Of a stretch of DNA of 64,000 nt, positions 35,113 to 54,506 are shown piece after piece. Positions within the stretch are counted from its first letter, which is position 1. Each line of letters starts with the position of its first letter. Source of the DNA: Vulcanimicrobiota bacterium. GTDB taxonomy: Bacteria > Vulcanimicrobiota > Vulcanimicrobiia > Vulcanimicrobiales > Vulcanimicrobiaceae. The notes below the pieces were generated by a model. That model was not told the origin of the DNA. It was given only the letters and a program-made list of their open reading frames with translations, and ran no database searches. The position numbers and the translations under genes are program-made. Where the stretch lies: the NCBI GenBank assembly GCA_027452165.1, contig DAIDGX010000004.1:62001-126000 (forward strand). Reading direction: 5' to 3'.

Positions 35113-35594
35113 GCATCGCTCCGCGTGAGAAGGCGATCGAGTCGAGCCCCAAGCGATGCATCGATCGTTCCGCAACGCACCTCGAGCACGACGTCACCGC
35201 GCCGCAAACGCTCGTCACCGATGACGCGCGCAAAGCAGGCACACGCCGCAACGTCATCCGGATGCACACGAATCGTCAGCGGTTCGTCAAAGGCGTACCG
35301 CTCGCGCGCGCGCGCAACGATCGCGCGCAGGTCGGGGGCTGCAAGCTGGAGCTCGCGCGCGAGCACCTCGTGCGCGATCTCTTCTCGCAGCGCCGCAACC
35401 GTCGCCTCGAGCGCATCGTCGAGGGCCATCCGAAAGCGCCGCGCCTCGGCGAGGGCATCGTCGCGTGCATCCGGCTCGCCGAACGCCTCGTCCGGTGCGC
35501 CGGTGGCAGAGCTCTCGTCAACCGCACGTGGCGCGCATTCGCCGGAGGACTCGGGGCGCAACCACGACACCAAGGAGACGAATGCATCAGGCAT
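35109..35594 (-). CDS. fliH: Flagellar-type export stator protein FliH
   Basis: 161 residues from the ATG at 35594, overlapping the fliF stop by 8 nt. Pattern: a variable acidic N-terminal part, a long helix (DDALAEARRFRMALDDALEATVAALREEIAHEV) and a C-terminal domain with RVHPDDVAA and GDVVLEVRCGTIDASLGARLDRL, which is the FliH/SctL/V-ATPase subunit E-type domain (the D-x-S-L sequence is typical). FliH regulates FliI and tethers it to FliN. Confidence 0.82.
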   Translation of the reverse strand: MPDAFVSLVSWLRPESSGECAPRAVDESSATGAPDEAFGEPDARDDALAEARRFRMALDDALEATVAALREEIAHEVLARELQLAAPDLRAIVARARERYAFDEPLTIRVHPDDVAACACFARVIGDERLRRGDVVLEVRCGTIDASLGARLDRLLTRSDA

Positions 35595-37056
35595 GCGTGC
35601 GCAGCACCTCGTCGAGATCGGGAACGATGGGCGCGTGCGCACGCTGCATGCGACGCACGATCGCCTCGCGTTCGTGCGCAGGATAGAGTTCGAGCACGGC
35701 TGCCGCGGTTGCCGCAGGAAGCGCACTGATGATCGCCGCCGCAGCGTGCGGCGGTTCATGCGCGAGCACGCCGCGCACCTGTGCCGGCGCATATCCCGCG
35801 ACCGTACGGGTAGCACGCTCGACCGCGACGCTCTCGGCATGCGCGCGTACGAGCCCCACCAGCGCAGGTAACGCCGCCTTCGTAAGCGCGATCGCCGCGA
35901 CCGCGAGGGCCACGAACGGCAGCAGCGCGGTGAGGATACCGTACGCGAGCATCCACGGATCGCTGCGCGCTCGCAAGGCGCGATGAAATTCGACCGCCTC
36001 GACGCTCAGTTGATCGCCGCGCCGTGGGTCGTATCCAACGGTCGCCGCGGCGAGATCGCGCACGCGCACGAGATCACCCGCGCGCGATGCGTCCAGAAAC
36101 ACCGCCGTACTAACGCGCACGAGCGCGCCCGCCGCGGTACGCGCCACCGTCTCGCGGGTCTCGGCGCCGCGATCGTCGCGCTCGTCGCTCTTGCGATAGC
36201 GCTTGGCACCATCGTCGTAGGACTCGGTGTCGAGGCTGCGCGTCACGGCCCCCGCAACCGGGGCGCGTAGCGTCTCGCGATGTTCCGTCGCCGCCTGCGT
36301 GCGCGCTTCGTGTACGCGCACGATCGCCATACCAGGCCCAAGCGCGGCGTCCAGCGCCGACTGCAGTTCCCGCTCGCGGGTTGCGCCATCGTCGCCGTCA
36401 TCCTCGCCAGCGCCGAGCGCGACGCCACGGTCATCGACGATCGTCACCCGCGCCGCGTCGAGCTGCGGAACGCTTGCGGCAACGAAGGCCCGTATGCCCT
36501 CGATTTGCGCGCGTGTCAGGTGCACGCCGGCACGCAGGTGCAGCCGCACGCTCGCGGTGGCGTCGCTCGCATGCTGGTCGGCAAATTCAGCCGTGTGGGC
36601 CGGAGCGACGATCACGCGCGCGTCCTCCACGCCGTCGATGCTGCGCAGTCCCATCTCGATATCGCCCGCGAGACCCGTACGCGTCTGGGCGTCGATCACG
36701 CTCTGCGGCGTGAGCACGCCAAGATTTGCGAGCGCCTCGCTCGTGGTCGCAACGTGCGCGTGCGGGACGCCTGCGAGCGAGAGACGCAGGAGCAATTCGC
36801 TACGCCGGCGAGATTCGACGATCACGTTGTCCGCGCGCGGCGTGAACGGAACGCGCCACTGCGCAAGCTGCGCCTCGACCTCACCCACCTGATCCGCGTG
36901 GAGCGGAGTCGCGAAGAGCGCCGAGCGAGGTGCATGCGCCATCACGCCGACAATGATGGCAACGAGCATCGCAGCACCGGATACGGCGGTCCCCAGTAAC
37001 CGGGCACGTGCGGGAAGCGCAGCACAGCGTTCGGCGAACGACTGAACGCTCCACAT
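35587..37056 (-). CDS. fliF: MS-ring protein FliF fused to a FliG middle-domain-like module
   Basis: 489 residues from the ATG at 37056 (TGATG overlap with fliE). Two transmembrane helices (LLGTAVSGAAMLVAIIVGVM near residue 20 and the segment WMLAYGILTALLPFVALAVA near 375) bracket a periplasmic region with ring-building motifs such as FTPRADNVIVES, GLAGDIEMGLRSIDGVEDARV and a VRLHLRAG strand. After TM2 the last about 63 residues (427-489; VLAHEPPHAAAAIISALP, then AAVLELYPAHEREAIVRRM) look like the FliG middle ARM domain with its EHPQ-type motif. No FliG C-terminal torque domain follows and no other fliG is seen. Confidence 0.85.
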   Translation of the reverse strand: MWSVQSFAERCAALPARARLLGTAVSGAAMLVAIIVGVMAHAPRSALFATPLHADQVGEVEAQLAQWRVPFTPRADNVIVESRRRSELLLRLSLAGVPHAHVATTSEALANLGVLTPQSVIDAQTRTGLAGDIEMGLRSIDGVEDARVIVAPAHTAEFADQHASDATASVRLHLRAGVHLTRAQIEGIRAFVAASVPQLDAARVTIVDDRGVALGAGEDDGDDGATRERELQSALDAALGPGMAIVRVHEARTQAATEHRETLRAPVAGAVTRSLDTESYDDGAKRYRKSDERDDRGAETRETVARTAAGALVRVSTAVFLDASRAGDLVRVRDLAAATVGYDPRRGDQLSVEAVEFHRALRARSDPWMLAYGILTALLPFVALAVAAIALTKAALPALVGLVRAHAESVAVERATRTVAGYAPAQVRGVLAHEPPHAAAAIISALPAATAAAVLELYPAHEREAIVRRMQRAHAPIVPDLDEVLRTHA

Positions 37057-37337
37057 CAGATTTGCAGGTTCAAGAGCGATTGGAGCGCTTGCGTCGCCCG
37101 TTGCGCCGCCGCGGTCGCGATCGAGAGCGCAACGTCGGCGCGAGCGCGTTCGTAGATCGCATCGTTCAGCGACCCGCCTCCAGTAGCAAACGCATCCTCT
37201 GCTCGAGTTGCCGCGCCGAGCACCGACGCCACGTCGTCGAGCGCCCGTGCAAATGCTCCCGGCTGTACGTCGCCGCGAGCGCGCAAGGCATCGGCATGCG
37301 AATCTGCTCGATCCGGCATCAAAAGCTCGACCCTCAC
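37056..37337 (-). CDS. fliE: Flagellar hook-basal body protein FliE
   Basis: 93 residues; GTG start overlapping the flgC stop (GTGA). The C-terminal half GGGSLNDAIYERARADVALS followed by IATAAAQRATQALQSLLNLQI is a textbook FliE sequence (S-L-x-x-x-x-x-x-A-x-A-D-V-A-L-S). FliE joins the MS ring to the rod and is among the first export substrates. Its N-terminal half is less conserved. Confidence 0.92.
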   Translation of the reverse strand: MRVELLMPDRADSHADALRARGDVQPGAFARALDDVASVLGAATRAEDAFATGGGSLNDAIYERARADVALSIATAAAQRATQALQSLLNLQI

Positions 37338-37669
37338 GAGAGCCGCCCCATATCGATCGTCTTCTCAGCAAGGGTCTTGCCGACGTCGAAGAGTGAGGCA
37401 TCGGATTCGTATGCGCGTGAGGCGTTCATCACCGCGATCATCTCGGTGAGGATATCGACGTTGACGCCACGCTCGTTGCGCGTACCCACAAACCGCACGG
37501 TTGGCGCGCCGCCATCGTCGGAGACGACGAAGCGGGGAATACTCCGTTGATAGGTTCCGTTCGGACCGGCTGCTTCGGCGGCGGCGACGTTACGCGCTTC
37601 GACGTCGAGCGCGGCGCGTTGTGCGTCCATCGCCGAAGCCGCCGACCGTAAGAGTGGCATGCCGTCCAC
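37334..37669 (-). CDS. flgC: Flagellar proximal rod protein FlgC
   Basis: 111 residues (typical about 135). N-terminal rod motif MPLLRSAASAMDAQRAALDV, then ARNVAAAEAAGPNGTYQR in place of the N-x-A-N-x-x-T pattern, and the C-terminal ERGVNVDILTEMIAVMNASR, AYESDASLFDVGKTLAEKTI. These match FlgC, in a compact form. GTG at 37669 or ATG at 37660 can start it; flgB ends two bases upstream. Confidence 0.88.
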   Translation of the reverse strand: MDGMPLLRSAASAMDAQRAALDVEARNVAAAEAAGPNGTYQRSIPRFVVSDDGGAPTVRFVGTRNERGVNVDILTEMIAVMNASRAYESDASLFDVGKTLAEKTIDMGRLS

Positions 37670-41743: not shown

Positions 41744-43243
41744 CTAGCCGTGCTGACGCTGGAGCGGGAAGAGCAGCACGTCGCGGATCGAGGTGTTGTT
41801 GGTTAGGAGCATCACCAGACGATCCATACCGATCCCGATACCGGCCGTCGGCGGCATGCCGTACTCGAGCGCGCGCACGAAGTCCCAATCGGGCTCGGGT
41901 ATCTCCTCATCGCCCTTCGCACGTTCGTCGATCTGTGCTTCGAAGCGCGCGCGCTGATCGTCAGGATCGTTCAACTCCGTAAACGCGTTCGAAATCTCCA
42001 TGTTGGCACAGAAGAGTTCGTACCGATCGACCAGTTCACGGTCATCCGCTTTGCGTTTGGCGAGCGGCGAGATCAGCACGGGATAGTCGACGACGAAGGT
42101 CGGCGCAATCAGGTGCGGCTCGAGGACCCGTTCGAAGATCTTGTCGAGCGCGTGGCCGTGGGTTGGCGACTCCGGCAAACCGAGCTCGCGCAGGATCTCC
42201 GTGGCCCCCTTCGGGTCGAGCAGGCGTTCGCGCGTGAACCGGCCGTCGGAATACTTCGCGATGCCTTCGAGGTAACCGATGCGCGCAAACGGACGCGCAA
42301 ACGAGATCGTGCGTTCGCCGATCTGCAGATCGGTGCCGCCGCCCGAGACGACACCTGCGAGATGCGCGATCAACGCCTCGTTGAAGTCCATCATGTCGTG
42401 GACGTCCCAATACGCGGCATAGAGTTCGAGCATCGTGAACTCGGGATTGTGCGTCGTGTCGATGCCTTCGTTGCGAAAGATCCGCCCGATCTCGTACACG
42501 CGCTCCATCCCGCCGACGATCAAACGCTTCAGATTCAGTTCGGTCGCGATACGTAGCTGCATCGCCTCGCCCGAGAGCGCGTTTACGTGCGTGAGGAATG
42601 GGCGAGCGGAGGCGCCACCGGCCACGTGCAGCAACGTGGGCGTCTCGACCTCGAAAAAACCTTGCCCGTCGATGAATCGGCGCGTCTCCGCGATGATACG
42701 CGAGCGCATGATCATCGTGTCGCGAACCTCGCTATTGACGATCAGATCGACATAGCGCTGGCGGTATCGCTTCTCAACGTCCTGCAAGCCGTGCCACTTG
42801 TCGGGGAGCGGCATCAGGGCCTTACCGAGCACGGCGAATTTCAGGACGTGCAGCGTAAGGTCGCCCTTCTTCGAGCGAAACATGAAGCCGTGCACACCGA
42901 CGAGATCGCCGCGATCGAGATCTTCCCAATCGGCAAACGACGCGTCGCCAATCTCGTCTTTACGGATATAGCACTGGATCCGCCCGGTTCGATCGTGCAG
43001 GTCGGCAAAGATCGTTTTGCCCATCGTGCGCTTCGACATCAGGCGCCCGGCAAGATACCAGTTCTCCGATTCGGCATGCTGTCCGACCTCGAGGAAGCCG
43101 TATCGCGCGAGCAGCTCTTGCGCCGACGCATCGACGGGATAGCGCGTTTGCGTAAACGGATCGTTGCCGCGCGAACGCAAAGCGGCCAGATTGTCGCGTC
43201 TGGCCGCTACGAGGGCAGCTTCGGATTTCCCGAGCTCGTCCAT
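41744..43243 (-). CDS. lysS: Lysyl-tRNA synthetase, class II
   Basis: 499 residues: an N-terminal OB-fold (KRTMGKTIFADLHDRTGRIQ) for the anticodon and a class II catalytic domain with motif 2 FRNEGIDTTHNPEFTMLE and motif 3 GIGIGMDRLVMLLT. Lysine-binding EISNAFTELNDPDDQR is present. The gene follows greA by 24 nt, the common greA-lysS pair. Confidence 0.97.
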   Translation of the reverse strand: MDELGKSEAALVAARRDNLAALRSRGNDPFTQTRYPVDASAQELLARYGFLEVGQHAESENWYLAGRLMSKRTMGKTIFADLHDRTGRIQCYIRKDEIGDASFADWEDLDRGDLVGVHGFMFRSKKGDLTLHVLKFAVLGKALMPLPDKWHGLQDVEKRYRQRYVDLIVNSEVRDTMIMRSRIIAETRRFIDGQGFFEVETPTLLHVAGGASARPFLTHVNALSGEAMQLRIATELNLKRLIVGGMERVYEIGRIFRNEGIDTTHNPEFTMLELYAAYWDVHDMMDFNEALIAHLAGVVSGGGTDLQIGERTISFARPFARIGYLEGIAKYSDGRFTRERLLDPKGATEILRELGLPESPTHGHALDKIFERVLEPHLIAPTFVVDYPVLISPLAKRKADDRELVDRYELFCANMEISNAFTELNDPDDQRARFEAQIDERAKGDEEIPEPDWDFVRALEYGMPPTAGIGIGMDRLVMLLTNNTSIRDVLLFPLQRQHG

Positions 43244-43267: not shown

Positions 43268-43789
43268 TTACGATGCTTTCTTCGCCGTCTTCTTCGCCGG
43301 GGCGGCGCCGTTGGTGCTGCGGATCGATTCGATCTTGTACTTCACCACGCCGCGCGGGGTGGTGACATCGACCGTCTCGCCCTTCTTGTGCCCGATGAGC
43401 GCGCGACCGAGCGGGGACTCATTCGAGATGCGTTGCACCTTCGGATCGGCCTCGGCCGAACCGACGATGTGAAACTCATAGCTCTCGTTGTTCTTGAGGT
43501 CTTTGACCTTGACCGTCGCACCCAAGTGCGCTTCGTCGGCTGCGTACTCCGACTCGTCGATGAGACGCGCACCGCGAATCATCGCCTCGAGCTTCAGGAT
43601 ACGCCCTTCGATGAACGCCTGCTCTTGCTTGGCATCCTCGTACTCGGCGTTCTCGCTCAGGTCGCCGTACTCTTTAGCCTGACGAATCCGATCGTTGACT
43701 TCTTTCCGATGGACGGTCTTCAACTCGTCGAGCTCATTTTGGAGCTTTTCGAGTCCCTCGGCGGTGAGGATGATCTCTTTCTCGTTCAA
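43268..43789 (-). CDS. greA: Transcription elongation factor GreA
   Basis: 173 residues. Coiled-coil N-terminal domain with LTAEGLEKLQNELDELKTVH, AKEYGDLSENAEYEDAKQEQ and FIEGRILKLE, then the FKBP-like C-terminal domain with GSAEADPKVQRISNESPLG and RALIGHKKGETVDVTTP. The acidic DLSENAEYEDAK tip is intact, so backtracked-complex cleavage should work. The protein carries a short extra Ala/Lys tail. Confidence 0.96.
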   Translation of the reverse strand: MNEKEIILTAEGLEKLQNELDELKTVHRKEVNDRIRQAKEYGDLSENAEYEDAKQEQAFIEGRILKLEAMIRGARLIDESEYAADEAHLGATVKVKDLKNNESYEFHIVGSAEADPKVQRISNESPLGRALIGHKKGETVDVTTPRGVVKYKIESIRSTNGAAPAKKTAKKAS

Positions 43790-43870: not shown

Positions 43871-45208
43871 TCAATCGCTGCGCAGCCCCCGGCCACGCAA
43901 CAGTGCAAAAGGTATACCCAGCAGGATGCCGCCCCATGCATAGTACTGCAGGGTTCTATCCTCGACGCCGATCGTGGCCACGAGGACCCCGAAGAGCGCT
44001 GCGGCCCCGAGAACGGGCACGATCACCCCGCCCAAGCGCGCCTCGCGCTCGCCCCAGAAGCGTCGCGCCGCCGCCGCGGCCGAAAGAACGAAGAGGAGCC
44101 CCAGAAAAACGGAACTCGCGTTCAAGACAATCTCGAGCTGAGCGGCCGCGCTTTGCGAGAAGCCGGTGACCAGTTCGCAGACGGTCACCAGAACGGCGAC
44201 GACGCCGAGCGCCCAGAGCGGTTCGTCGCGACGGTCGAGTTCACCGAGGGCGCGCGGCAATACGCCGTCGCGCCCCATCGCGAAGACCGAACGCGAAAGG
44301 TACAGAATCGTCGTCCAGAGCGTGGAGAGCGTGGAAAGCAAGACCGTGACGACGATGATCGTGCGCCACCAACCCCCACCGAGCAACTCGCCGACATAGG
44401 CGAGCGTATCGGCTTGGTGATCGACGAAGCCCGTCAACGTACCAAGGTGCAAGTAGGCGTACATGCAGCCCACAAGCACGAGCGTCGAGAGGATCAACCC
44501 CGCGATCCCGCCGCGCCCCGAGGCCGAGGCCGTATCGTCCACCTCTTCGCTCGTCGAAGCGCTCACCTCCCACCCGTCGCTCATCCATACCGCAAGCGTC
44601 ATCGCGGTAACGAAGCCAGCGATACCCACACCGGGAAGCGGCGGCGTCGCACCCGCGACCGGTGCGACGGCATGCGGATGCACGACGTACGCGGCGATCG
44701 CCGTCGCGACCAGCACGACGATTTCGAAGGCGAGCGCGAGAAACGTGACGAGCGCCGTCGGACGCACGCCCGCATAGAGCATGAGCGAACTCGCTAAAAT
44801 CCACACCGCTCCGACGATCGCGGCCCACGCGGGATCGTTTTCGTACGCGGGCGCAACGAGCGCGAGCGTGTAGATGCCGGCCGGCACCGCAATCGCCATC
44901 GTCGCAAAGAAATTGGAGAGCAGCAGCAGCCACGCGCCGTAGGCGCCCATACGATCGCCGAAGGCCATCCGTATCCACGAGTACGACGAGCCCGCGTTCG
45001 GCGCGATGCGCGACAGGTACGAAAACGAGACGGCGACGCAGAGCATGATCGCCGAGAGCGCGACGAGCGCGACGGGCGAGCCGAAACCGGCCGCCGCCAC
45101 CATCGGCCCCATCGTCGAGGCAAGCGAATACGCCGGCCCCATCGACGCCGAGGCAAGCACCGAAATATCGAAATAATGGAGGACGCGCGGGAGGTGACGC
45201 GCCGCCAC
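43871..45208 (-). CDS. APC-family amino acid permease
   Basis: 445 residues, about 12 transmembrane helices. APC signatures: MGPAYSLASTMGPMVAAAGF, SRIAPNAGSSYSWIRMAFGD, SDGWEVSASTSEEVDD and LWTTILYLSRSVFAMGRDG. It imports or exchanges an amino acid or amine. GTG start overlapping the upstream stop by one base (TAGTG), so it is coupled to the quinate-dehydrogenase-like gene. With an aminotransferase in the same run of genes it may bring in the amine substrate; this is inference. Confidence 0.88.
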   Translation of the reverse strand: MAARHLPRVLHYFDISVLASASMGPAYSLASTMGPMVAAAGFGSPVALVALSAIMLCVAVSFSYLSRIAPNAGSSYSWIRMAFGDRMGAYGAWLLLLSNFFATMAIAVPAGIYTLALVAPAYENDPAWAAIVGAVWILASSLMLYAGVRPTALVTFLALAFEIVVLVATAIAAYVVHPHAVAPVAGATPPLPGVGIAGFVTAMTLAVWMSDGWEVSASTSEEVDDTASASGRGGIAGLILSTLVLVGCMYAYLHLGTLTGFVDHQADTLAYVGELLGGGWWRTIIVVTVLLSTLSTLWTTILYLSRSVFAMGRDGVLPRALGELDRRDEPLWALGVVAVLVTVCELVTGFSQSAAAQLEIVLNASSVFLGLLFVLSAAAAARRFWGEREARLGGVIVPVLGAAALFGVLVATIGVEDRTLQYYAWGGILLGIPFALLRGRGLRSD

Positions 45209-46116
45209 TAGCCGTTCAAGGGCACGACGCGCGGGGTGAGATGGAGTTCACGCAACACGCGATCGTAATCGGCGGCCGTTACGTCTTCCCAACGCTTGCC
45301 GAGCAGCGCCAGCAGCGCCGCTTCGATGACGTTGGTGCCAAACGAACGCCCGGCAAAATCGGGCGTCGTCGTGATCAACATCGTTACGCCGCGCGCGCGC
45401 AGTTCCTCGATGTTCGCTTCGGTGACGGTGTTCGTGAGCACGATCTTCCCGTCGAGACGATCGGGCATGAACTGCCGCATGAAGTGGAAGTCGCCAGCGA
45501 TCACGTCGGCTTCGTCGTAGTACTGCGGGTATTTCGGTTGCGGCGGCTTCTCCTGTTTCTTGCCGGTCGGATAGAAAAACTGGAAGGGCAGCTTGCACGC
45601 ATCGGGGAGATACTTCTCCGCCATCTCTTCGAACGTATGAAGATCGCGCACCGCGATGTCCTTATCGAGCGCGAAGATGAAGTCGCCAAAAAGCACGTCG
45701 GCACCGGCATCAACGAGCGCTTGCGCCATGCCGAAGCGGTCGAGCGCGCTCACCATCAGCACTTTCTTGTCGCGCAGATCGATCGTGAGCTCGTCTCGCA
45801 TGAAACGGACCGCCGCGCGCTCGAGCGTATTCTTCAGCCCGCTCCCGTCGACGACCGGCGTGATCTTGGCCGCCTGCAGCAAACGCAGCCCGTCGCGCAG
45901 CGCATAGCGCTTCGAGCCCGCGTACAGATACACGTCGATGCCGCCAAGCCCGATCGCATCGACGGTCCCGTCGAGTTCCGCCATCTTCGCAAGCGCAACG
46001 TCGAGCTTTCCATCGACGCCCTCGCGTGAAATATCGAACTCTTCACCGAGCAGCTTCACGACCGCGCGATGATCGCGTGTCGAGGACCCGAGCGAAACCG
46101 AAACGATGCGTTTCAC
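45208..46116 (-). CDS. Quinate 5-dehydrogenase-like protein of unclear function
   Basis: 302 residues from a GTG at 46116. The sequence has repeated Rossmann-like pieces: an N-terminal IVSVSLGSSTRDHRAVVKLL, GLGGIDVYLYAGSKRYALRD, KKVLMVSALDRFGMAQALVD, and a conserved tail LTNTVTEANIEELRARGVTM with TTTPDFAGRSFGTNVIEAAL. Such proteins are commonly named quinate/shikimate 5-dehydrogenase in annotation, without strong biochemical support known to me. Its neighbours suggest a role in the aminotransferase/reductase pathway rather than aromatic synthesis. Confidence 0.6.
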   Translation of the reverse strand: MKRIVSVSLGSSTRDHRAVVKLLGEEFDISREGVDGKLDVALAKMAELDGTVDAIGLGGIDVYLYAGSKRYALRDGLRLLQAAKITPVVDGSGLKNTLERAAVRFMRDELTIDLRDKKVLMVSALDRFGMAQALVDAGADVLFGDFIFALDKDIAVRDLHTFEEMAEKYLPDACKLPFQFFYPTGKKQEKPPQPKYPQYYDEADVIAGDFHFMRQFMPDRLDGKIVLTNTVTEANIEELRARGVTMLITTTPDFAGRSFGTNVIEAALLALLGKRWEDVTAADYDRVLRELHLTPRVVPLNG

Positions 46117-46246
46117 GTTTACAGGCGCTCCGCCCCGGGCTCCGCGCCCCCCACTTCGTGGGGCCCCCATACCACGGCGCGCGACAGATCTCCGTTCGCC
46201 GGAGATCCCCCTGGGGCGCGCCGAACGAATTCTGATACGCGAGCGA
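46117..46246. repeat. Hairpin-rich spacer related to the one at 49.1 kb
   Basis: Contains CCCCAC-TTC-GTGGGG (46149-46163) and GATCTCCG-TTCGC-CGGAGATC (46187-46207), plus GCGCGC-rich flanks. The spacer upstream of the aminotransferase has comparable pieces (CCCAC-TT-GTGGG, GATCTCCG). It may be a terminator/attenuator between the reductase and dehydrogenase genes, or a REP-like element. Confidence 0.45.
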
Positions 46247-47365
46247 TCATACAGCGAGACTCCGTCGAGCTAACGCCGCTTGGCGTGTTGCGGCGATTTT
46301 TTCCGGCGTGATGGCGGTGTCGAATGCGCGCATGTCGGCGAGGGTGAAGCCGCAGCGGGTCGCCATCTGCTCGATCTCGATCACCTTCTCGAGTTCGATG
46401 CCGCGGCCGAGCGTGTAGTTCTCGACACGGTTCTCAAGGGCGAGCACCATCGTCTCGCTCATACAGGCAAGCGCGGTGCGCGGCGGGAGGTTCAGATCGA
46501 ACTCCGATCCCGGTTGACGCACGCGGTCGAAACGGGGCGTTCCGGGTACGAGCATGTTACCGCCTTCGGTGACGAGCACATCCGGGCGCTCGAGCGCCAC
46601 GCGGCGGCTGACGTCGTGCGGCAGCGAGAGTTCGCATACCACGGCGCCGGTCTGCAAATCTTCGGGTTGAATCACGTCCTGCGTCGATGAGGTCGCAGTG
46701 AGAATCAGTTGCGCGCGGCGCACCGCATCGCTGATGTCGGTGGTAAACGACGACTCGCATGGGAGCGAGCTTTTGATCTCGTCGTGAAATTTTGCGAGGC
46801 GCGTGTTGTTGCGCGCAACCAAGATCACGTGCTTGACTCGCTGCGCGATGAGGCGCGCGCAGGCGCTTCCGATCGACCCCGTCGCACCGACGACGACCGC
46901 GGTACTCTCGGCGGGATCGATGCCCATCTCGTCGGCGCCGCGGAAAAGGCTCTGAATACCCGCCGCGATCGTAAGCGAGTTGCCGGTGGTCACCGCGATC
47001 GGCGAGCGTTCGGCGATCGTCACGCCGCCGTCGCCGACGACGCCCGTGAAGGCGCCAAGGCCCGCGATCTCCGCACCGAGTTCCACGCCGATTTCGATCG
47101 CACGCAGGATGCGTTTATAGACCTCTTCGCGCGGGAATTCCATCATCTGCTCGGGCAAGAGCGGCGCGGTCACAAACCAGCCTTCGGTCTCGCGTCCGTC
47201 GGGCGCGCGCACGCCCGTGACGTGTACCGCGGCCCACGGCGGCATCCACTCCATGATCTTGCGAATGATCGGCGCGCCTTTGCCGGCCGCGCCGGGCTCG
47301 TATCGCGCGACGTCGTCGAGCGAGAGCGGATGGATGACGAAGCAGAACTTCGGCGTGCGGTTCAC
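46247..47365 (-). CDS. Long-chain acyl-ACP reductase (AAR)-like oxidoreductase
   Basis: 372 residues from a GTG at 47365 overlapping the previous stop (GTGA). It aligns along its length with cyanobacterial acyl-ACP reductase: FVIHPLSLDDV at the N-terminus, GLGAFTGVV, TTGNSLTIA, the NAD(P) loop VVGATGSIGSA (158-168), ILVARNNTRL, TEGGNMLVPG and ALACMSETMVLALEN with Cys301 at the position of the catalytic Cys of AAR. It would reduce an acyl thioester to an aldehyde. No aldehyde-deformylating oxygenase is nearby. Many annotation systems would call it a shikimate dehydrogenase-like protein. Confidence 0.75.
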   Translation of the reverse strand: MNRTPKFCFVIHPLSLDDVARYEPGAAGKGAPIIRKIMEWMPPWAAVHVTGVRAPDGRETEGWFVTAPLLPEQMMEFPREEVYKRILRAIEIGVELGAEIAGLGAFTGVVGDGGVTIAERSPIAVTTGNSLTIAAGIQSLFRGADEMGIDPAESTAVVVGATGSIGSACARLIAQRVKHVILVARNNTRLAKFHDEIKSSLPCESSFTTDISDAVRRAQLILTATSSTQDVIQPEDLQTGAVVCELSLPHDVSRRVALERPDVLVTEGGNMLVPGTPRFDRVRQPGSEFDLNLPPRTALACMSETMVLALENRVENYTLGRGIELEKVIEIEQMATRCGFTLADMRAFDTAITPEKIAATRQAALARRSLAV

Positions 47366-47799
47366 GCGCGTTCGGCCTCGGCCTTTAGAGCGGCGAGCAT
47401 CATCTCGCTGTTCTCCTGCACCTTCTTGTGCAACGTCGGTCCGATCAGTTCGGCGAGCGTCGGCACGCCGAAGTCGTATTCGACGCCGAGCGTCACGTGC
47501 GTTGCACCGTCGCGTTCTTCGAAGGTCCACGCGCCCTCGAACGTGTCGAGATCGCCTTCGAGGAGCCGGTAGTCGATGCGCAGTGCGCCGTCGTCAAAGC
47601 GGTCTTCTTCAGTCCACTCGATCGGTGCCTCTTCGACCAGCGTTTTCCAGCGCGTGATGACGCGATCGGGGTGACGTTCGAGCACCACGACCGTCTCAAC
47701 GTCCGGCATGAACTCGGGGAAGCGCTCTTGCTCTTTGGCAAGGTCGTACACGCGCCGGGCAGGAGCCGCGACCGCGATGCGGGTTTCGACGTAGGGCAT
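47362..47799 (-). CDS. SRPBCC-family protein (polyketide cyclase / COQ10-like START domain)
   Basis: 145 residues forming one SRPBCC hydrophobic-ligand fold: MPYVETRIAVAAPARRVYDL, KEQERFPEFMPDVETVVVLE, then a strand region (WTFEERDGATHVTLGVEYDF) and a long C-terminal helix. COQ10-like members bind quinones or lipids. It lies 7 nt after the aminotransferase and overlaps the reductase, so it may carry or cyclise a hydrophobic substrate of that pathway. The exact ligand is unknown. Confidence 0.82.
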   Translation of the reverse strand: MPYVETRIAVAAPARRVYDLAKEQERFPEFMPDVETVVVLERHPDRVITRWKTLVEEAPIEWTEEDRFDDGALRIDYRLLEGDLDTFEGAWTFEERDGATHVTLGVEYDFGVPTLAELIGPTLHKKVQENSEMMLAALKAEAERA

Positions 47800-47806
47800 G
47801 ATATTT

Positions 47807-49066
47807 TTACAAGCGGCCTAGCTTCTCAGCCGCAGTAGCGACCCCTGCCCGCAGGGCTCCAAGCGCCCGCTCCACCTCCCCCGCGCTCACCACGAGCGGG
47901 GGTTCGAGCCGGATCACCCGCTGCTGGTTGAGCGTCCAGGCGGCGGTGACGCCCGCCTTGAGCATCTCGGGGATGATCCAGCCGCCGTAGCCCTCGCTCG
48001 TGAGTTCCACGCCCACCAGAAGGCCAAGGCCCCGCGTCTGCGCGATCACCGAGGGGTACTCGGCGGCGATCGCGCGCACGCCCTCGAGCAACTGCGCACC
48101 ACGCTCGCGCGCGTTCTCGACCAGGCCGTCCTCCACGAGCACCTCCATCGCGGCGAGTGCCGCGGCGCAGGCGATCTCGCTGCCGCCGAAGGTGGAGGTA
48201 TGCACCAGCGGCTGCTTGGCATAGGCTCGATTCCACACGGCGGGGCGCGCGATAAAGGCGCCGACCGGGATGATCCCGCCGGAAAGGCCCTTCGCAAGCG
48301 TCATGACGTCGGGGACGATCTCGTCGCGATTGCACCCGAAGAGGTAGCCACAGCGGCCGAGCCCGGTCTGCACCTCGTCGGCAATGAAGACCGCGCCAGC
48401 ACGATCGCACGCCTCGCGCACCGCGCGCAGGTAGCCCGCGGGCGGCACGTTGACGCCGCCCTCGCCCTGCACCGGCTCCACGATAAACGCCGCCGCGTCG
48501 CGCAGCGCCTCATCGAGCACCGAGGCATCGCCATAGGGCACGTGCGCAACGTCCGCGAGCAACGGACGGAACGGCGTTTGGAAGGCCTCGCGACCGCTCA
48601 CCGAGAGCGCACCGAGCGTCTTGCCGTGGTATGCGTCGTGGGTCGCGACGATCTTGGCTCGTCCGGTTGCGGCGCGCGCGAGCTTCGTCGCACCCTCGAC
48701 CGCCTCGGTGCCGCTGTTGCACCAGAACGAGAGTTGCAAATCGCCGGGTGCGAGTTCCGCGAGACGTTTTGCCGCACGCCCGAGTACGACATTGAACATC
48801 GTCTTACCCGAGAGCGACATCGACTCCATCTGTTCGCGCACCGCCGCGATTACTCGCGGATGCGAATGACCGAGCGTGAAGACGCCGTAGCCACCCGCGA
48901 AATCGAGATACGCCTTCCCGTGCTGATCCCAGATCGTCGTGCCCTGCGCGCGTACTTCCACGGGCGAACCCGAGAGTTTCATCACGCGCGCGAGCGGCGG
49001 ATTCAGATAGCGTTTGTAGTTCTCGAAGACGTCGCCTGCGAGATCTTGGGTATTGTTGTCGAGCAT
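47807..49066 (-). CDS. Class III aminotransferase (putrescine/acetylornithine type)
   Basis: 419 residues from the ATG at 49066. PLP enzyme: substrate-side FAGGYGVFTLGHSHPRVIAAV, phosphate loop NSGTEAVEGATKLARAATGR, DAYHGKTLGALSVSG, IVEPVQGEGGVNVP, FIADEVQTGLGRCG and the PLP-binding Lys in MTLAKGLSGG. Its N-terminal NPPLARVMKLSGSPVEVRAQ fits the putrescine/diamine aminotransferase branch better than argD. It opens a run of five co-directed genes (SRPBCC, acyl-ACP-reductase-like, dehydrogenase-like, permease). Confidence 0.88.
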   Translation of the reverse strand: MLDNNTQDLAGDVFENYKRYLNPPLARVMKLSGSPVEVRAQGTTIWDQHGKAYLDFAGGYGVFTLGHSHPRVIAAVREQMESMSLSGKTMFNVVLGRAAKRLAELAPGDLQLSFWCNSGTEAVEGATKLARAATGRAKIVATHDAYHGKTLGALSVSGREAFQTPFRPLLADVAHVPYGDASVLDEALRDAAAFIVEPVQGEGGVNVPPAGYLRAVREACDRAGAVFIADEVQTGLGRCGYLFGCNRDEIVPDVMTLAKGLSGGIIPVGAFIARPAVWNRAYAKQPLVHTSTFGGSEIACAAALAAMEVLVEDGLVENARERGAQLLEGVRAIAAEYPSVIAQTRGLGLLVGVELTSEGYGGWIIPEMLKAGVTAAWTLNQQRVIRLEPPLVVSAGEVERALGALRAGVATAAEKLGRL

Positions 49067-49279: not shown

Positions 49280-50287
49280 CTACGCGGCGTTCGCGGCGGC
49301 GGCTCCGATGCGGACGATCGCATCATCGATCACCGCAATCGCCTCGTCGGCGCGATCGATGCGCATAATCTGCTCGCGAATCGCCGCCGCGCCCGGAATG
49401 CCTTTGAGGTACAGCGCAACGTGCCGGCGCATCTGCGGGACCGCGCGCTTCTCACCGAGTTCGTCAACCATGCGCTCGTAGTGCACGATGCAGAAACGCA
49501 GGCGTTCAGCGGGCGGCGGCAGCGGCTGCGCTTCGCGCCCCTCCATGAGATCGCGAATCTGGGAGATCAGCCACGGATTGCCGAGCGTAGCACGGCCGAG
49601 CATGATCGCGTCGACGCCGCTCTCGCGCATGCGCGTCATCGCGACGTGCGCGTCGTCCAAATCGCCGTTTCCGATAACCGGAATATCCACGTTTTGCTTG
49701 AGGCGTGTGATGTGCTCCCAGTTGGCGCTGCCCTTGTAGAACTGGCGCGCGGTACGCGCGTGGAGCGTCACCGCCTTCACGCCGACCCTTTGCGCGCGCT
49801 GCGCGACGTCGATATAGACGATCTGATCCTCGGTCCAACCCAGGCGCATCTTCATCGTGACCGGACAATCGACGGCCTCGACGACCGCGCGCATGATCTC
49901 TTCGCAGCGGTCGGCGTCGCGCAGGCACGCCGAGCCACCGTTGGTTTTGGTCACCTTGGGAGCGGGACAGCCAAAGTTGATATCGACGATATCCGCGCCG
50001 CACTCGCGCACGAGCCTCGCCGCCGCCGCCATCGTCGCCGGATCGTCGCCCCATAGCTGCGTGGAGACCGGCTTCTCGAGCCCGTGCTGGTCGATCATCT
50101 CCATCGTCCGCTTGCTGCCGTATTTGAGTGCGTTCGAAGAGACGAACTCGGTGACCGTGAGGCCGAGGCCGAAGGGCTTATACAGGGCCCGCATCGTCTT
50201 GTTCGTCACGCCGGACATCGGCGCGAGGACCAGCGGGGGCCAGATCTGATGATCGCCGATCTGCAGCGGCGCAACGGTAGGAGGCAT
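49280..50287 (-). CDS. dusB: tRNA-dihydrouridine synthase (DusB-like)
   Basis: 335 residues from the ATG at 50287. FMN TIM-barrel signatures: LVLAPMSGVTNKTMRALYKP, the catalytic Cys in INFGCPAPKVTKTNGGSACL, VTMKMRLGW, LHARTARQFYKGSANWE, PVIGNGDLDD and GRATLGNPWL. The enzyme reduces uridine in the D-loop of tRNA. The longer frame to 50326 adds only a low-complexity Gly-rich start. Confidence 0.94.
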   Translation of the reverse strand: MPPTVAPLQIGDHQIWPPLVLAPMSGVTNKTMRALYKPFGLGLTVTEFVSSNALKYGSKRTMEMIDQHGLEKPVSTQLWGDDPATMAAAARLVRECGADIVDINFGCPAPKVTKTNGGSACLRDADRCEEIMRAVVEAVDCPVTMKMRLGWTEDQIVYIDVAQRAQRVGVKAVTLHARTARQFYKGSANWEHITRLKQNVDIPVIGNGDLDDAHVAMTRMRESGVDAIMLGRATLGNPWLISQIRDLMEGREAQPLPPPAERLRFCIVHYERMVDELGEKRAVPQMRRHVALYLKGIPGAAAIREQIMRIDRADEAIAVIDDAIVRIGAAAANAA

Positions 50288-50366
50288 CGCGCCCCAACTA
50301 TACGACCCCCACCCCCCACCACGCAACGCCGCAATGCGCCCCCGCCGGAGACCAACAGGCGACGCT

Positions 50367-50445
50367 CACCGGTTGGGAGCCCATCAAGGGCTCCCAACCG
50401 GTGGTAGCTTTACCGCGCAAAGCTTCAGCTTTGCGCGGTAAAGCT
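50367..50445. terminator. Tandem perfect hairpins after the DUF3465-like lipoprotein gene
   Basis: Hairpin 1: CACCGGTTGGGAGCCC (50367-50382) with its complement at 50388-50403, 16 bp. Hairpin 2: AGCTTTACCGCGCAAAGCT (50406-50424) with its complement at 50427-50445, 19 bp. The second abuts the stop codon of the lipoprotein gene. No T-run follows, so they may act as strong bidirectional blocks or RNA ends. Confidence 0.6.
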
Positions 50446-51614
50446 TACCAATATTTCTGGCAGTTGTTGCCGGCGTTGTCGCAGACGTAGACCCAGCCGA
50501 CGTTCGGCCACGAGCCGGTGTCGTCTTCGGTCCAGTCGATACCCTGACTCGACGCGTTGTCGTAGTAGTAGCGACCCTGCACGTAGACGTACTGCCCGAC
50601 CGCAACCCACGGCCAGTTCGAAGGCGGCTGATTGCTCGGCGCCTGCGCCATCGCGTCAAGATTCGAGACGATCTCGATGTCGTATCCCGAGGGCATCTGC
50701 ACGTAGAAGTACCCGTGCAGACCGCTCGAGGTGGTCTTCGAGGGCAGCACCTGCGTGACCGTACCACAGACGTCTTCGAGCTGATCGCCCGAGAGCGCAC
50801 CCGACGCAAACGCACTCTGATCGCTCAGGAACTGTTGGTTGTTGCACGGCGCAGCGCCCGGTGTCGCGGTCGGCGCAATCGTCGGTGTCGCGGTCGGCAT
50901 CGGCGTCGGCGATGGCGTCGAACTGGGATTCGGCGTGGGTGCCGGCGTCAGCGTCGGAGCGGGCGTCGGGGTCGCACCGTTAGCACCGAGAAACACGTCG
51001 TCAACGTACTGGTAGATGTAACCACTGTTCCAGCCGTTGCCATACACGCCGAAGAACAGCCACACCGTCTGGCCCGCGTAGGAGCTCAGATCGAAGCTCT
51101 TTTGCACCCAGCCGTTCGTACTCGCGGCCTCGCTATAAAGCGCATCGACCACGTTGCCGCTCGCATCCAGCAGATCGGCTTCTTGATCCGCATAGGCAAG
51201 CGTGTCGTTCGTTCCCTCGTACACCCAGAACGAGAGCTGCCCGTTGGCCGGAATCGTCACTTGCTGGCAGACGCCGGAATATCCATTGACCTCGGGCGTC
51301 GTCGTCGCGCCGTTGAGATCGCTGTAGCTACCGCTATGCACGCGCGTCGTCGAGATCGTCGCGTTCACGCTACCGCACTGCTGCCACGTGGAGAAGCCCC
51401 CGCTTTCGAAACCGGGATCCCCGATCACGTTCGTCGCCATGCTCGTGACGCGCCCAGCGGGTTTGCGCGCCGGAACGACGATACGCGTGCTCGCCGGCCG
51501 CTTCGCGCCCGTGTTATGCGGCGCGCTGGGGATGGCCGGCTGCGAAGCCCCTCCGCTACACGCGGAGACGAGCACCGCAAGCGCAACGCTCGTTGCGCCA
51601 AATCGTTTGAACAT
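50445..51614 (-). CDS. Lipoprotein with carbohydrate-binding-like domain, Thr/Pro linker and DUF3465-like domain
   Basis: 389 residues; the ATG at 51614 is six bases after GGAGG. Lipobox LVSAC. Domain 1 (about residues 63-215) is a jelly-roll-like binding domain: NVIGDPGFESGGFSTWQQCG, LSFWVYEGTND, WLFFGVYGNGWNSGYIYQYV. A Pro/Thr linker of about 40 residues follows. Domain 2 (about 265-389) follows the DUF3465 pattern: VCGTVTQVLPSKTTSSGLHG, then VSNLDAMAQ, VQGRYYYDN, IDWTEDDTGS and a closing GWVYVC. Surface-anchored; function unknown. Start chosen by the ribosome binding site. Confidence 0.7.
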   Translation of the reverse strand: MFKRFGATSVALAVLVSACSGGASQPAIPSAPHNTGAKRPASTRIVVPARKPAGRVTSMATNVIGDPGFESGGFSTWQQCGSVNATISTTRVHSGSYSDLNGATTTPEVNGYSGVCQQVTIPANGQLSFWVYEGTNDTLAYADQEADLLDASGNVVDALYSEAASTNGWVQKSFDLSSYAGQTVWLFFGVYGNGWNSGYIYQYVDDVFLGANGATPTPAPTLTPAPTPNPSSTPSPTPMPTATPTIAPTATPGAAPCNNQQFLSDQSAFASGALSGDQLEDVCGTVTQVLPSKTTSSGLHGYFYVQMPSGYDIEIVSNLDAMAQAPSNQPPSNWPWVAVGQYVYVQGRYYYDNASSQGIDWTEDDTGSWPNVGWVYVCDNAGNNCQKYW

Positions 51615-51706
51615 ATACACCCTCCAAAACGAATGAACTCGGAAACAACCGCTCCGAGTCTATCGCGAGGATATTAAGCCGGCGTAAACATTACTAGATG
51701 ATTTCC

Positions 51707-52495
51707 TCATCTACCTGAGGTTTTGCCGTGCTCCTTTACGTGGAAAAGCTGCAAACCCGTGAGCCCGAGATACGGATCCACGTGTTGGATCAGCGTACTA
51801 TGACGCGCAACAACATCAGCAAGACCACCCGTCGCGACCACGCGCGCCGGGACGCCCATCTCGGCGCGCATCCGCGTCACGATCGCTTCGGTTTGCCCGA
51901 CGAAGCCGTAGATGAATCCGGCTTGAAGCGCTTCGACCGTGTTACGCCCGATCGCACGTTCGGGTGCGTCGAGTGCGATCTGTGGAAGCTTTGCCGTGCC
52001 TCCCGTGAGTGCGTCGATCGAGATGTTGATCCCCGGCGCAATCGCCACGCCTAAATACTCGGAGGCTGCGGAGATGGCAATGAACACCGTCGCCGTGCCG
52101 TAGCTGACCACAATAAGCGGCGCACCGTATCGGGCAACGCCGCCGATTGCCGCCGCAACGAGATCGGCGCCGACCTCGGCCGCGCGATCGGTAACGATCG
52201 GCATCAGCGTTTGATGCTGCGGTTCGAGAAAGCGCGGCGTGACCGAGAAGAATTTCTCGCATACCGCCTGAAGCGTTCGATCGAGCCGTGGCACGACGCT
52301 CGCGATCACCACCGCATCGATCGCACTTGCCTTCACGCCGGCCGTTGCGAAGAGTTGGGTAAAGAAGGCACCGTACTCATCGGCCGTGCGCCGCGATTCC
52401 GTCGTGACGCGCCAATGCTGCACGAGCCGGTCGGAACCGTCCATGAAGCAGCCGAGTTTCGTCTCCGTGTTACCAACGTCAATCGCCAAGAGCAT
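51707..52495 (-). CDS. coaX: Type III pantothenate kinase-like protein with altered active-site motifs
   Basis: 262 residues; ATG overlaps the coaBC stop (TGATG). Fold and position fit type III pantothenate kinase: AIDVGNTETKLG with Asp6, ASVVPRLDRTL, EVGADLVAAAIGG, GTATV, GGTAKLP and VVATGGLADVV. Two positions differ from active enzymes: GADR has become GADL (Leu112) and the Asp before GTAT has become Ser131. The protein may be a weak or repurposed kinase, or the sites may be compensated. Operon order panC-coaBC-coaX supports a role in CoA synthesis. Confidence 0.75.
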   Translation of the reverse strand: MLLAIDVGNTETKLGCFMDGSDRLVQHWRVTTESRRTADEYGAFFTQLFATAGVKASAIDAVVIASVVPRLDRTLQAVCEKFFSVTPRFLEPQHQTLMPIVTDRAAEVGADLVAAAIGGVARYGAPLIVVSYGTATVFIAISAASEYLGVAIAPGINISIDALTGGTAKLPQIALDAPERAIGRNTVEALQAGFIYGFVGQTEAIVTRMRAEMGVPARVVATGGLADVVARHSTLIQHVDPYLGLTGLQLFHVKEHGKTSGR

Positions 52496-53694
52496 CAGCG
52501 CGTCCTCCGCAACTCGGTGATAGCATCGAGCAGGCGCGCCGCAAGCATCGTCTTTCCGGCCGTCCCAAGCTCGCGGCGGCCGTCGCCCGGCCACAACAAC
52601 GCAAGCGTGTTTTCGCCTGGGCCGAAGCCGCGCTCGTCGCGCACGTCGTTTACCACGATCGCATCCAGGTGTTTGCGCGCGAGCTTTTCACGTGCATGCG
52701 CCTCGTGATCGTCGGTTTCGGCGGCAAAGCCGACAAGGAATGTCGCGCCCTTGCGTTCGCCGAGCGCCGCGAGCACATCGGGGTTTCGTACCATGCGTAC
52801 GTGCAAGTCGTCATCGCTCTTTTTTAATTTCGTTTCGGAGCGCTCGTGCGGGCGCCAGTCGGCGACCGCGGCCGTCGCAATCACGACGTCGCTTCCCACC
52901 GCGTGCGCCAAGGCAAGATCGTACAACTGCTCGGCCGTCGTGAAGCGCAGCGTGCGAACGCCCGCCGGCGGCTCGAGATGCGTGGGACCGAGCAGCAGCG
53001 TCACCTCCGCGCCGCGTAGCGCCGCCTCGCGCGCGAGGGCGATGCCCGTAGCGCCGGTTGACGCGTTGCTCACGAAGCGGATCGGATCGAACGCTTCGCG
53101 CGTCGGTCCGGCCGTGATCGTGACCCGCTCACCGCGAAACGTCTCGCCGCGCGCGAGCGCGTTCGCAAGTGCCTCGAAGAGCCGTTCCTCCGGCGCGAGC
53201 CGCCCAATGCCACTCTCGCGCTCGGCGAGGAAACCGCGTTCCGGCTCGACGATCTCGTAGCCACGCGCGCGCAGGAGTGCGAGATTTTCGACGGTGGCCG
53301 GGTGTTCGTACATTGCGCTATTCATCGCCGGGGCCACGATCACCGGAATGCGCGCGGCAAGTAAGGCCGTGGTCAGCAGATCGTCCGCGATTCCGTGCGC
53401 GAGCTTCGCGATCGTGTTTGCGGTTGCGGGCGCGACGAGAATCACCTGCGCTTCGCGTACGAGACGAATGTGCGGGATACGTTCGGGCGCGTCCCAGAGC
53501 GAGGTATAGACGGGCCGCGCGGTCAGCGACGAAAACGTTAGCGCGCCGACAAAACGTTCGGCCTCCGCCGTCATGATGACGTCAACCGTGGCGCCGTGCT
53601 GTACGAGGGTGCTCGTGAGCCCGGCGATTTTATATGCGGCGATCCCACCGCACACGCCGAGCACCACACGCGATCCGTCTATGCGTCGATCCAT
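52495..53694 (-). CDS. coaBC: Bifunctional phosphopantothenoylcysteine decarboxylase / phosphopantothenate-cysteine ligase
   Basis: 399 residues. The CoaC flavoprotein half has VLGVCGGIAAYKI, VAPATANTIAKLAHGIADDL and VIVAPAMNSAMYEHP; the substrate-clamp region reads FLAERESGIGRL, so the usual active-site Cys of ACGD is not at that place. The CoaB half has ITAGPTREAFDPIRFVSNAS, TGATGIALA, AVADWRPHE, and KLKKSD with MVRNPDVLAALG. It makes 4'-phosphopantetheine from 4'-phosphopantothenate and Cys. Starts inside the panC stop (16-nt overlap). Confidence 0.92.
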   Translation of the reverse strand: MDRRIDGSRVVLGVCGGIAAYKIAGLTSTLVQHGATVDVIMTAEAERFVGALTFSSLTARPVYTSLWDAPERIPHIRLVREAQVILVAPATANTIAKLAHGIADDLLTTALLAARIPVIVAPAMNSAMYEHPATVENLALLRARGYEIVEPERGFLAERESGIGRLAPEERLFEALANALARGETFRGERVTITAGPTREAFDPIRFVSNASTGATGIALAREAALRGAEVTLLLGPTHLEPPAGVRTLRFTTAEQLYDLALAHAVGSDVVIATAAVADWRPHERSETKLKKSDDDLHVRMVRNPDVLAALGERKGATFLVGFAAETDDHEAHAREKLARKHLDAIVVNDVRDERGFGPGENTLALLWPGDGRRELGTAGKTMLAARLLDAITELRRTR

Positions 53695-54506
53695 ATGTTA
53701 TCCAGCAGGCGCGTCGCGCCGAAACGCGCGGCCCCGATAATAAACGCGGGTGGCCGCAAAATATCGATCGGTTCGAACGTATCGCTATCCACGACGTCAA
53801 GGTAATCGAGATGCGCAAGCGGATGGAGCAGGCCACGCGCCGCCGCGAGCGCGTCGCCCTTTGTCCGGCCGCCCGCCATCGCCAAGCGAACCGCTTGCAG
53901 CGCGCGGTGGAGTGAGGGAGCGGCTTCGCGTTCTTGCGATGACAGATACACGTTGCGGCTCGAACGCGCAAGACCATCGGGCTCGCGTTCGGTCGGTACG
54001 ATCGTCACCCGGACCGGCAAATCGAGATCGCGCACGACGCGGCGAATGACCGCCGTTTGCTGCGCGTCCTTCTGCCCGAGGTACAGCACGTCGGGGCGCA
54101 CGATATTGAGGAGTTTCGTCACCACGGTCGCGACGCCGCGAAAATGCGTCGGGCGGAGGGCGCCTTCGAACGACGTGCCGAGCGCGCCCGGATCGACCGT
54201 GGTCGAAAACTCTTCAGGATAGATCGCCGCGACGTCCGGCGCAAAGATCACGTCAACGCCGGCCCGATGCAGTTTCGCGCAGTCGCCTTCGAGGTCGCGC
54301 GGATAGCGATCGAAATCCTCACTCGGACCAAACTGCGCCGGGTTTACGAAGATCGACACGGCGATCGCCGAAGACTCGTCGCGCGCGCGCGTTACGAGCG
54401 CAAGGTGCCCATCGTGCAACGCACCCATCGTCGGCACGAATCCGAGCGGTCGCGGCAAGACCTCGAAGAGCGCGCGCGCCTGCGCGACGGTCGAAACGGT
54501 GTGCAC
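53679..54506 (-). CDS. panC: Pantothenate synthetase
   Basis: 275 residues, GTG start. Ligates pantoate and beta-alanine with ATP. Motifs: GFVPTMGALHDGHLALV (HxGH), VSIFVNPAQFGPSEDFDRYP, LYLGQKDAQQTAVIRRVVRD and the KMSKS-like ARSSRNVYLS. First gene of panC-coaBC-coaX. No panB or panD is in the window. Confidence 0.96.
   Translation of the reverse strand: MHTVSTVAQARALFEVLPRPLGFVPTMGALHDGHLALVTRARDESSAIAVSIFVNPAQFGPSEDFDRYPRDLEGDCAKLHRAGVDVIFAPDVAAIYPEEFSTTVDPGALGTSFEGALRPTHFRGVATVVTKLLNIVRPDVLYLGQKDAQQTAVIRRVVRDLDLPVRVTIVPTEREPDGLARSSRNVYLSSQEREAAPSLHRALQAVRLAMAGGRTKGDALAAARGLLHPLAHLDYLDVVDSDTFEPIDILRPPAFIIGAARFGATRLLDNIWIDA

Follow-up and report, generated by a model that had tools for sequence, protein, structure and literature searches.

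Within a 64,000-nucleotide stretch of the 2.64 Mb genome of a Vulcanimicrobiota bacterium (contig DAIDGX010000004.1, positions 62,001 to 126,000; hereafter the window), four adjacent genes encode a class III aminotransferase, an SRPBCC protein, a predicted acyl-thioester reductase and a conserved protein without a description, here called protein U. We propose that this module serves as a core biosynthetic route to long-chain primary amines, a reading to which we assign a probability of about 0.6. The aldehyde- and amine-forming steps that it would require are well supported by homology, including homology to the experimentally studied PigE and TamH. The genes of the locus, followed by their conserved neighbours, are:

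47807..49066, minus strand: class III pyridoxal phosphate (PLP) aminotransferase, 419 residues, ATG start, PLP lysine K259 (PF00202, 2.3e-99)
47362..47799, minus strand: SRPBCC/START-like hydrophobic-ligand protein, 145 residues (PF03364, 3.5e-19)
46247..47365, minus strand: predicted acyl-thioester reductase of the fold of acyl-(acyl carrier protein) reductase (AAR), 372 residues, GTG start, Cys301, GATGSIG loop
45208..46116, minus strand: protein U, conserved family without a description, 302 residues, GTG start
43871..45208, minus strand: APC amino-acid permease, optional operon member, 445 residues (PF13520, 8e-28)
49280..50326, minus strand: dusB, conserved upstream neighbour
43268-43789, minus strand: greA, conserved downstream neighbour
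41744-43243, minus strand: lysS, conserved downstream neighbour

Along the minus strand the order is thus dusB, aminotransferase, SRPBCC, reductase, U, permease, greA and lysS. The aminotransferase and SRPBCC genes lie 7 bp apart, the SRPBCC stop codon overlaps the GTG start of the reductase as GTGA, and a gap of 130 bp precedes U. A first-pass annotation, made from the sequence alone, had read 45208-49066 as a possible aldehyde/amine pathway; these coordinates, the 372-residue length of the reductase and the cysteine within ALACMSET were all correct on re-reading, all five genes are indeed co-directed, and the Pfam matches confirm the aminotransferase and SRPBCC assignments. A promoter scan gave no signal above chance, and PADLOC returned no match, which speaks against a role in defence.

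The reductase carries an NAD(P) loop, VVGATGSIGS, and its Cys301 aligns with Cys294 of the AAR from S. elongatus, in agreement with the earlier placement of both features; this cysteine is unchanged in 21 of 21 aligned sequences. Its AlphaFold model (predicted local distance difference test score, pLDDT, 92) matches all AAR crystal structures (template modelling, TM, score 0.81), among them 6jzy, 6jzq, 6jzu and 6jzz with TMt scores of 0.78-0.82, one of the AAR crystals having NADPH and stearyl bound. The carmabin TAD thioester domain ranks after them, the AAR crystals and this domain together spanning TM 0.7-0.8, and the remaining structures score about 0.5 or less. The modelled fold and catalytic cysteine therefore support an AAR-type enzyme. 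Identity as a shikimate dehydrogenase was considered and rejected because the fold of the model matches the AAR crystals instead; shikimate dehydrogenases reach a TMq of only 0.30-0.38, and PF01488 covers residues 151-256 rather than the full length. The earlier description as AAR-like holds for fold and cysteine but probably does not extend to membership of the cyanobacterial AAR clade: the score against TIGR04058 is 97.7 bits, far under the curated cut-off of 449.7, and in NCBIfam the reductase half of PigE scores best (1.7e-60), ahead of cyanobacterial AAR (8e-28), both well outside what chance would give. Among solved structures the profile likewise finds PigE (5e-61) and then AAR (1.7e-43), with a steep fall afterwards. 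In the tree, whose deep forks are weak, the window reductase lies in a clade of its phylum next to Bacillota and Armatimonadota proteins and to reductase-aminotransferase fusions, with PigE and the long-branched S. elongatus AAR falling outside. By sequence comparison, the reductase thus appears nearest to the reductase half of PigE and outside the cyanobacterial AAR clade. A second AAR-like protein, 28% identical, is encoded in a genome of the window's family (G096; L051:7186-8241), unaccompanied by the other operon genes.

The aminotransferase presents a similar picture. Its NCBIfam matches are the aminotransferase half of PigE (5.7e-125) and putrescine aminotransferase (1.8e-124), both under the curated cut-offs; against NF008570, the model for the putrescine aminotransferase PatA, it scores 415.9 bits and does not reach the cut-off of 612. 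Against NF053554 (PigE), with a cut-off of 850, the window reductase and aminotransferase, being separate open reading frames, score 205 and 419 bits, respectively. In its tree, the aminotransferase clusters with those of Negativicutes and Armatimonadota that adjoin SRPBCC genes, and PatA forms the sister group. For the SRPBCC protein, the closest solved structure by profile is TTHA0849 of Thermus thermophilus (2d4r; 4e-32), the runner-up being at 1.6e-11; a search of the literature on TTHA0849 and on fatty-amine membrane lipids found nothing on function.

Fusion proteins link the two predicted enzymes directly. The aminotransferase is fused N-terminal to the reductase at five Bacillota loci and in Leisingera, and the reverse order, that of PigE, occurs at the Bacillota locus L208 and in the PigE proteins of Proteobacteria; recurrence in both orders argues for a functional link between reductase and aminotransferase. 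In six Armatimonadota genomes (L210-L215), the reductase, with its cysteine motif kept, is instead fused behind an apparent PlsY, and the four of these proteins that were run against Pfam all matched PF02660 (approximately 1e-42 to 1e-44). This apparently previously undescribed fusion connects the reductase with the acyl groups found in glycerolipids. As to the surroundings of the fusions, the five Bacillota open reading frames with the aminotransferase first (L196, L197, L198, L199 and L204) are about 900 residues or longer and do not lie beside prodiginine genes; the L196 genome holds a single reductase in addition to its fusion. The PigE-order fusion (L208:7081-15157) is found near a large protein resembling MMPL-type transporters and a LolA-like protein, as read by eye, neighbours which suggest an exported amine-containing lipid, and a similar trio is annotated in Leisingera (L054).

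The distribution of the genes was surveyed in 148 Vulcanimicrobiota/Eremiobacterota genomes, some relatives being labelled Armatimonadetes or Bacillota. The reductase is present in 137 of them, mostly as a single copy, and U in 134; several of the few mismatches reflect genes truncated where a contig stops. Across distant families, the order aminotransferase-SRPBCC-reductase-U-greA-lysS is kept, with the permease as a variable insert, and aminotransferase-SRPBCC-reductase-U is a near-universal core operon of the phylum, its four-gene order conserved throughout. The reductase is also carried by 113 of 121 Armatimonadota; among 17 of these examined, a full operon-type aminotransferase (E <= 1e-169) was found in 15 and fragments of it in 2, and U in 16. 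The near-universal occurrence of reductase and U in Vulcanimicrobiota, and of the reductase in Armatimonadota, points to core rather than secondary metabolism. Both Armatimonadota and Bacillota have reductase and U, and encode an orthologous or related aminotransferase at another site. The Bacillota arrangement is dusB-[helix-turn-helix regulator]-[U]-reductase-greA-lysS, neither an aminotransferase nor an SRPBCC gene being present at the locus, and all ten such genomes keep U plus a class III aminotransferase (44-52% identity). In Sporomusa, an Acidaminococcaceae genome and two others, the aminotransferase directly adjoins an SRPBCC gene and clusters with that of the window, an adjacency seen in Negativicutes and Armatimonadota. 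Across 249 Bacillota genomes, reductase and U occur together in 158, the reductase alone in 5, U alone in 28 and neither in 58; the SRPBCC type was found in 13 of 119 Bacillota genomes, 12 of which also carry the reductase, and in Desulfofundulus (Bacillota) an SCP2 gene adjoins U. A helix-turn-helix family without a Pfam match precedes U or the reductase in Bacillota (L083:7468-7995, L113:6508-7038 and similar; L191:8852-9379), and a copy also lies beside the aminotransferase in genome G156.

These data bear on whether the aldehyde has another fate, feeding ether lipids, plasmalogens, alcohols or hydrocarbons, with the aminotransferase acting separately on amino acids or polyamines and having no more than the operon in common with the reductase. 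A lipid role without the aminotransferase is what the PlsY fusions would suggest, and many Clostridia have the reductase and U by themselves at the dusB/greA-lysS site, the aminotransferase being encoded elsewhere. We nevertheless consider this explanation unlikely, given the recurrent reductase-aminotransferase fusions in both orders, the operon-type aminotransferase in 17 of 17 Armatimonadota (including the two with fragments) and the lack of a deformylating oxygenase in the operon. The first-pass annotation had already noted this lack, which holds for the operon genes, a genome-wide search not having been made; on this ground, an aldehyde-to-alkane pathway was rejected.

The same annotation had listed the APC permease among the co-directed, tightly packed neighbours. 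It is present and co-directed in the window but is a variable insert across the phylum, most loci beyond the window's family lacking it, and Desulfofundulus has a different permease beside U (25% identity); because of this variability among loci, it was rejected as a core component. The permease matters to two further explanations. Under the first, the reductase would act on a short or amino-acid-derived thioester, as do GluTR, PigE and the carmabin TAD domain, and the pathway would yield a small amine or the precursor of a cofactor. The fold is common to the carmabin TAD domain and, distantly, GluTR, the APC permease of the operon carries amino acids, and the aminotransferase lies near E. coli PatA, a putrescine enzyme; set against these are the PlsY-reductase fusion, the hydrophobic-ligand nature of the SRPBCC and SCP2 companions and the lack of conservation of the permease, and we judge a short substrate improbable, to the same degree as an alternative fate of the aldehyde. 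The second would make the operon catabolic, the permease importing amines or diamines that are transaminated to aldehydes and then oxidized to acyl-coenzyme A (acyl-CoA) by the AAR-like enzyme. A permease inside the operon and a PatA-like aminotransferase would fit such a scheme, but it is very improbable in view of the near-universal core distribution, the variable permease, the fusion of the reductase to the biosynthetic enzyme PlsY and the reducing direction in which the studied relatives AAR, TamH and PigE run. The original suggestion that an aldehyde from an acyl thioester is transaminated to an amine, or the reverse, is therefore strengthened in its forward form by the pairing of reductase and aminotransferase in operon and fusions and by the acyl-lipid context of the PlsY fusions, and disfavoured in its reverse form.

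Protein U had been annotated as dehydrogenase-like, a description that did not survive: no match was found in Pfam, NCBIfam or a sequence search of the PDB, nor in a plasmid search, and inspection revealed no recognizable reductase loop or cysteine motif. Its model (pLDDT 91) is loosely AAR-like (6jzq, TMq 0.51, 12% identity) and also resembles sugar-binding and amino-acid dehydrogenase folds. U is a new and widespread family and a close companion of the reductase; its probable role is to assist or regulate that enzyme as a partner, or to catalyse the next step of the pathway.

In the proposed amine route, an acyl group from acyl-ACP (ACP, acyl carrier protein) or acyl-CoA would be transferred to Cys301 and reduced to a fatty aldehyde at the expense of NAD(P)H, a step assigned to the reductase because of its fold, catalytic cysteine and relatives. 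The aminotransferase, with an amino acid as donor, would then convert the aldehyde to a fatty amine, as suggested by the operon, the fusions and the precedents of PigE and TamH. With TamH, an AAR-type domain plus a transaminase take acyl-ACP to a C12 aldehyde and on to a C12 amine (PMC9594044), and a lysate containing PigE turned a thioester into the transaminated product (PMC8341465). A hydrophobic intermediate is probably bound by the SRPBCC protein, or by SCP2 in some Bacillota, and U would act in one of the capacities named above. As a speculative last step, the amine would most likely be built into a membrane lipid that contains an amide or amine, similar in kind to the N-glyceroyl-alkylamine lipids of Deinococcota; the near-universal presence of the module in the phylum makes a structural or housekeeping product likelier.

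Several considerations weigh against this route. Substrate, direction and amine product are all things that we infer, and relatives of the reductase also use other thioesters, 3-acetyloctanoyl in the case of PigE and others with the carmabin TAD domain. To our knowledge, no alkylamine lipid has been reported from Bacillota or Armatimonadota. U is encoded in 28 Bacillota genomes with no detected reductase, the Fisher odds ratio of 65 for the co-occurrence of the two in Bacillota is not corrected for kinship, and many Clostridia have a more distant aminotransferase variant and no SRPBCC protein.

That Deinococcus and Thermus make alkylamine phosphoglycolipids has been known since 1985. The amide-linked alkylamine is carried by their major phosphoglycolipids (PMC3035268, PMC3398001), and a 2022 paper stated that a fatty-amine pathway 'probably' exists, naming no amine gene (PMC9636437); our literature search found no report of amine-forming genes for these lipids. 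All polar lipids of Vulcanimicrobium, the first cultivated member of the phylum, are listed as unidentified (PMC9758169). In Vulcanimicrobium WC8-2 the main fatty acid is iso-C14:0, and the proposed route would there be expected to yield mostly iso-C14 amine. A link between the module and the Deinococcus/Thermus lipids is an attractive and plausible idea. TIGR04058 matches were found in the Deinococcota control genomes of Thermus composti and Deinobacterium chartae, which constitute weak evidence because M. jannaschii, where GluTR may suffice, matches too. The broader possibility, that the module is an ancient route to membrane-lipid alkylamines common to Vulcanimicrobiota, Armatimonadota, many Bacillota and Deinococcota, with U as an essential new component, is put forward tentatively and is distinctly less likely than the amine route itself. 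Were it true, lipids bearing an alkylamine would be much more common than the handful of cases on record suggests, and would occur in phyla in which they escape routine fatty-acid analysis; the module would offer concrete candidate genes for the fatty-amine step in Deinococcus and Thermus.

Concerning the surroundings of the operon, greA-lysS adjacency is kept in most loci of the phylum and most of those in Bacillota, and is probably positional only. Further neighbours include coaX and coaBC, with no prodiginine or tambjamine genes alongside; a prodiginine-type cluster was rejected, the neighbours being dusB, greA, lysS, coaX and coaBC. As read from sequence, the CoA genes coaX, coaBC and panC are found immediately upstream of dusB (window 51707-54506, minus strand), and the coaX-dusB neighbourhood recurs in Bacillota loci. 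Between dusB and coaX, a 391-residue protein without a Pfam match (50445-51620, minus strand) has a lipoprotein-like start and looks secreted. Farther away, a FliF protein (35587-37401, minus strand) matches the FliG middle domain at its C terminus and is possibly a FliF-FliG fusion.

Compared with known systems, the operon is a new, split and core-metabolic version of the PigE/TamH amine-forming pair, accompanied by the new companion family U, and it brings into core metabolism a pairing associated until now with rare pigments. PigE of prodigiosin biosynthesis (PMC8341465, PDB 4ppm) has the same two domains, each the top NCBIfam match of a separate window protein, with the cysteine kept; it is a single fusion, whereas the window has two genes, no pigment cluster, the added SRPBCC protein and U, and phylum-wide conservation. 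PtTamH of tambjamine biosynthesis (PMC9594044), compared by description only, follows the same logic from acyl-ACP through aldehyde to fatty amine, experimentally demonstrated for PtTamH, but is fused and belongs to a natural-product cluster that also encodes an ACP-loading enzyme, whereas the window reductase and aminotransferase are separate. Cyanobacterial AAR (TIGR04058, 6jzq/6jzy) has fold, cysteine and NAD(P) loop in common with the window reductase, yet is only about 25% identical and apparently separate in the tree, and the window operon lacks a deformylating oxygenase. E. coli PatA, also a class III aminotransferase, is the nearest characterized free-standing relative in the tree, in a different gene context. 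Finally, the N-glyceroyl alkylamine lipids of Deinococcus and Thermus require a fatty amine with a fatty-acid-like chain (PMC3398001, PMC3035268, PMC9636437); the lipid amine of T. thermophilus is iso-heptadecyl, and among solved structures TTHA0849 of the same species comes closest to the window SRPBCC protein.

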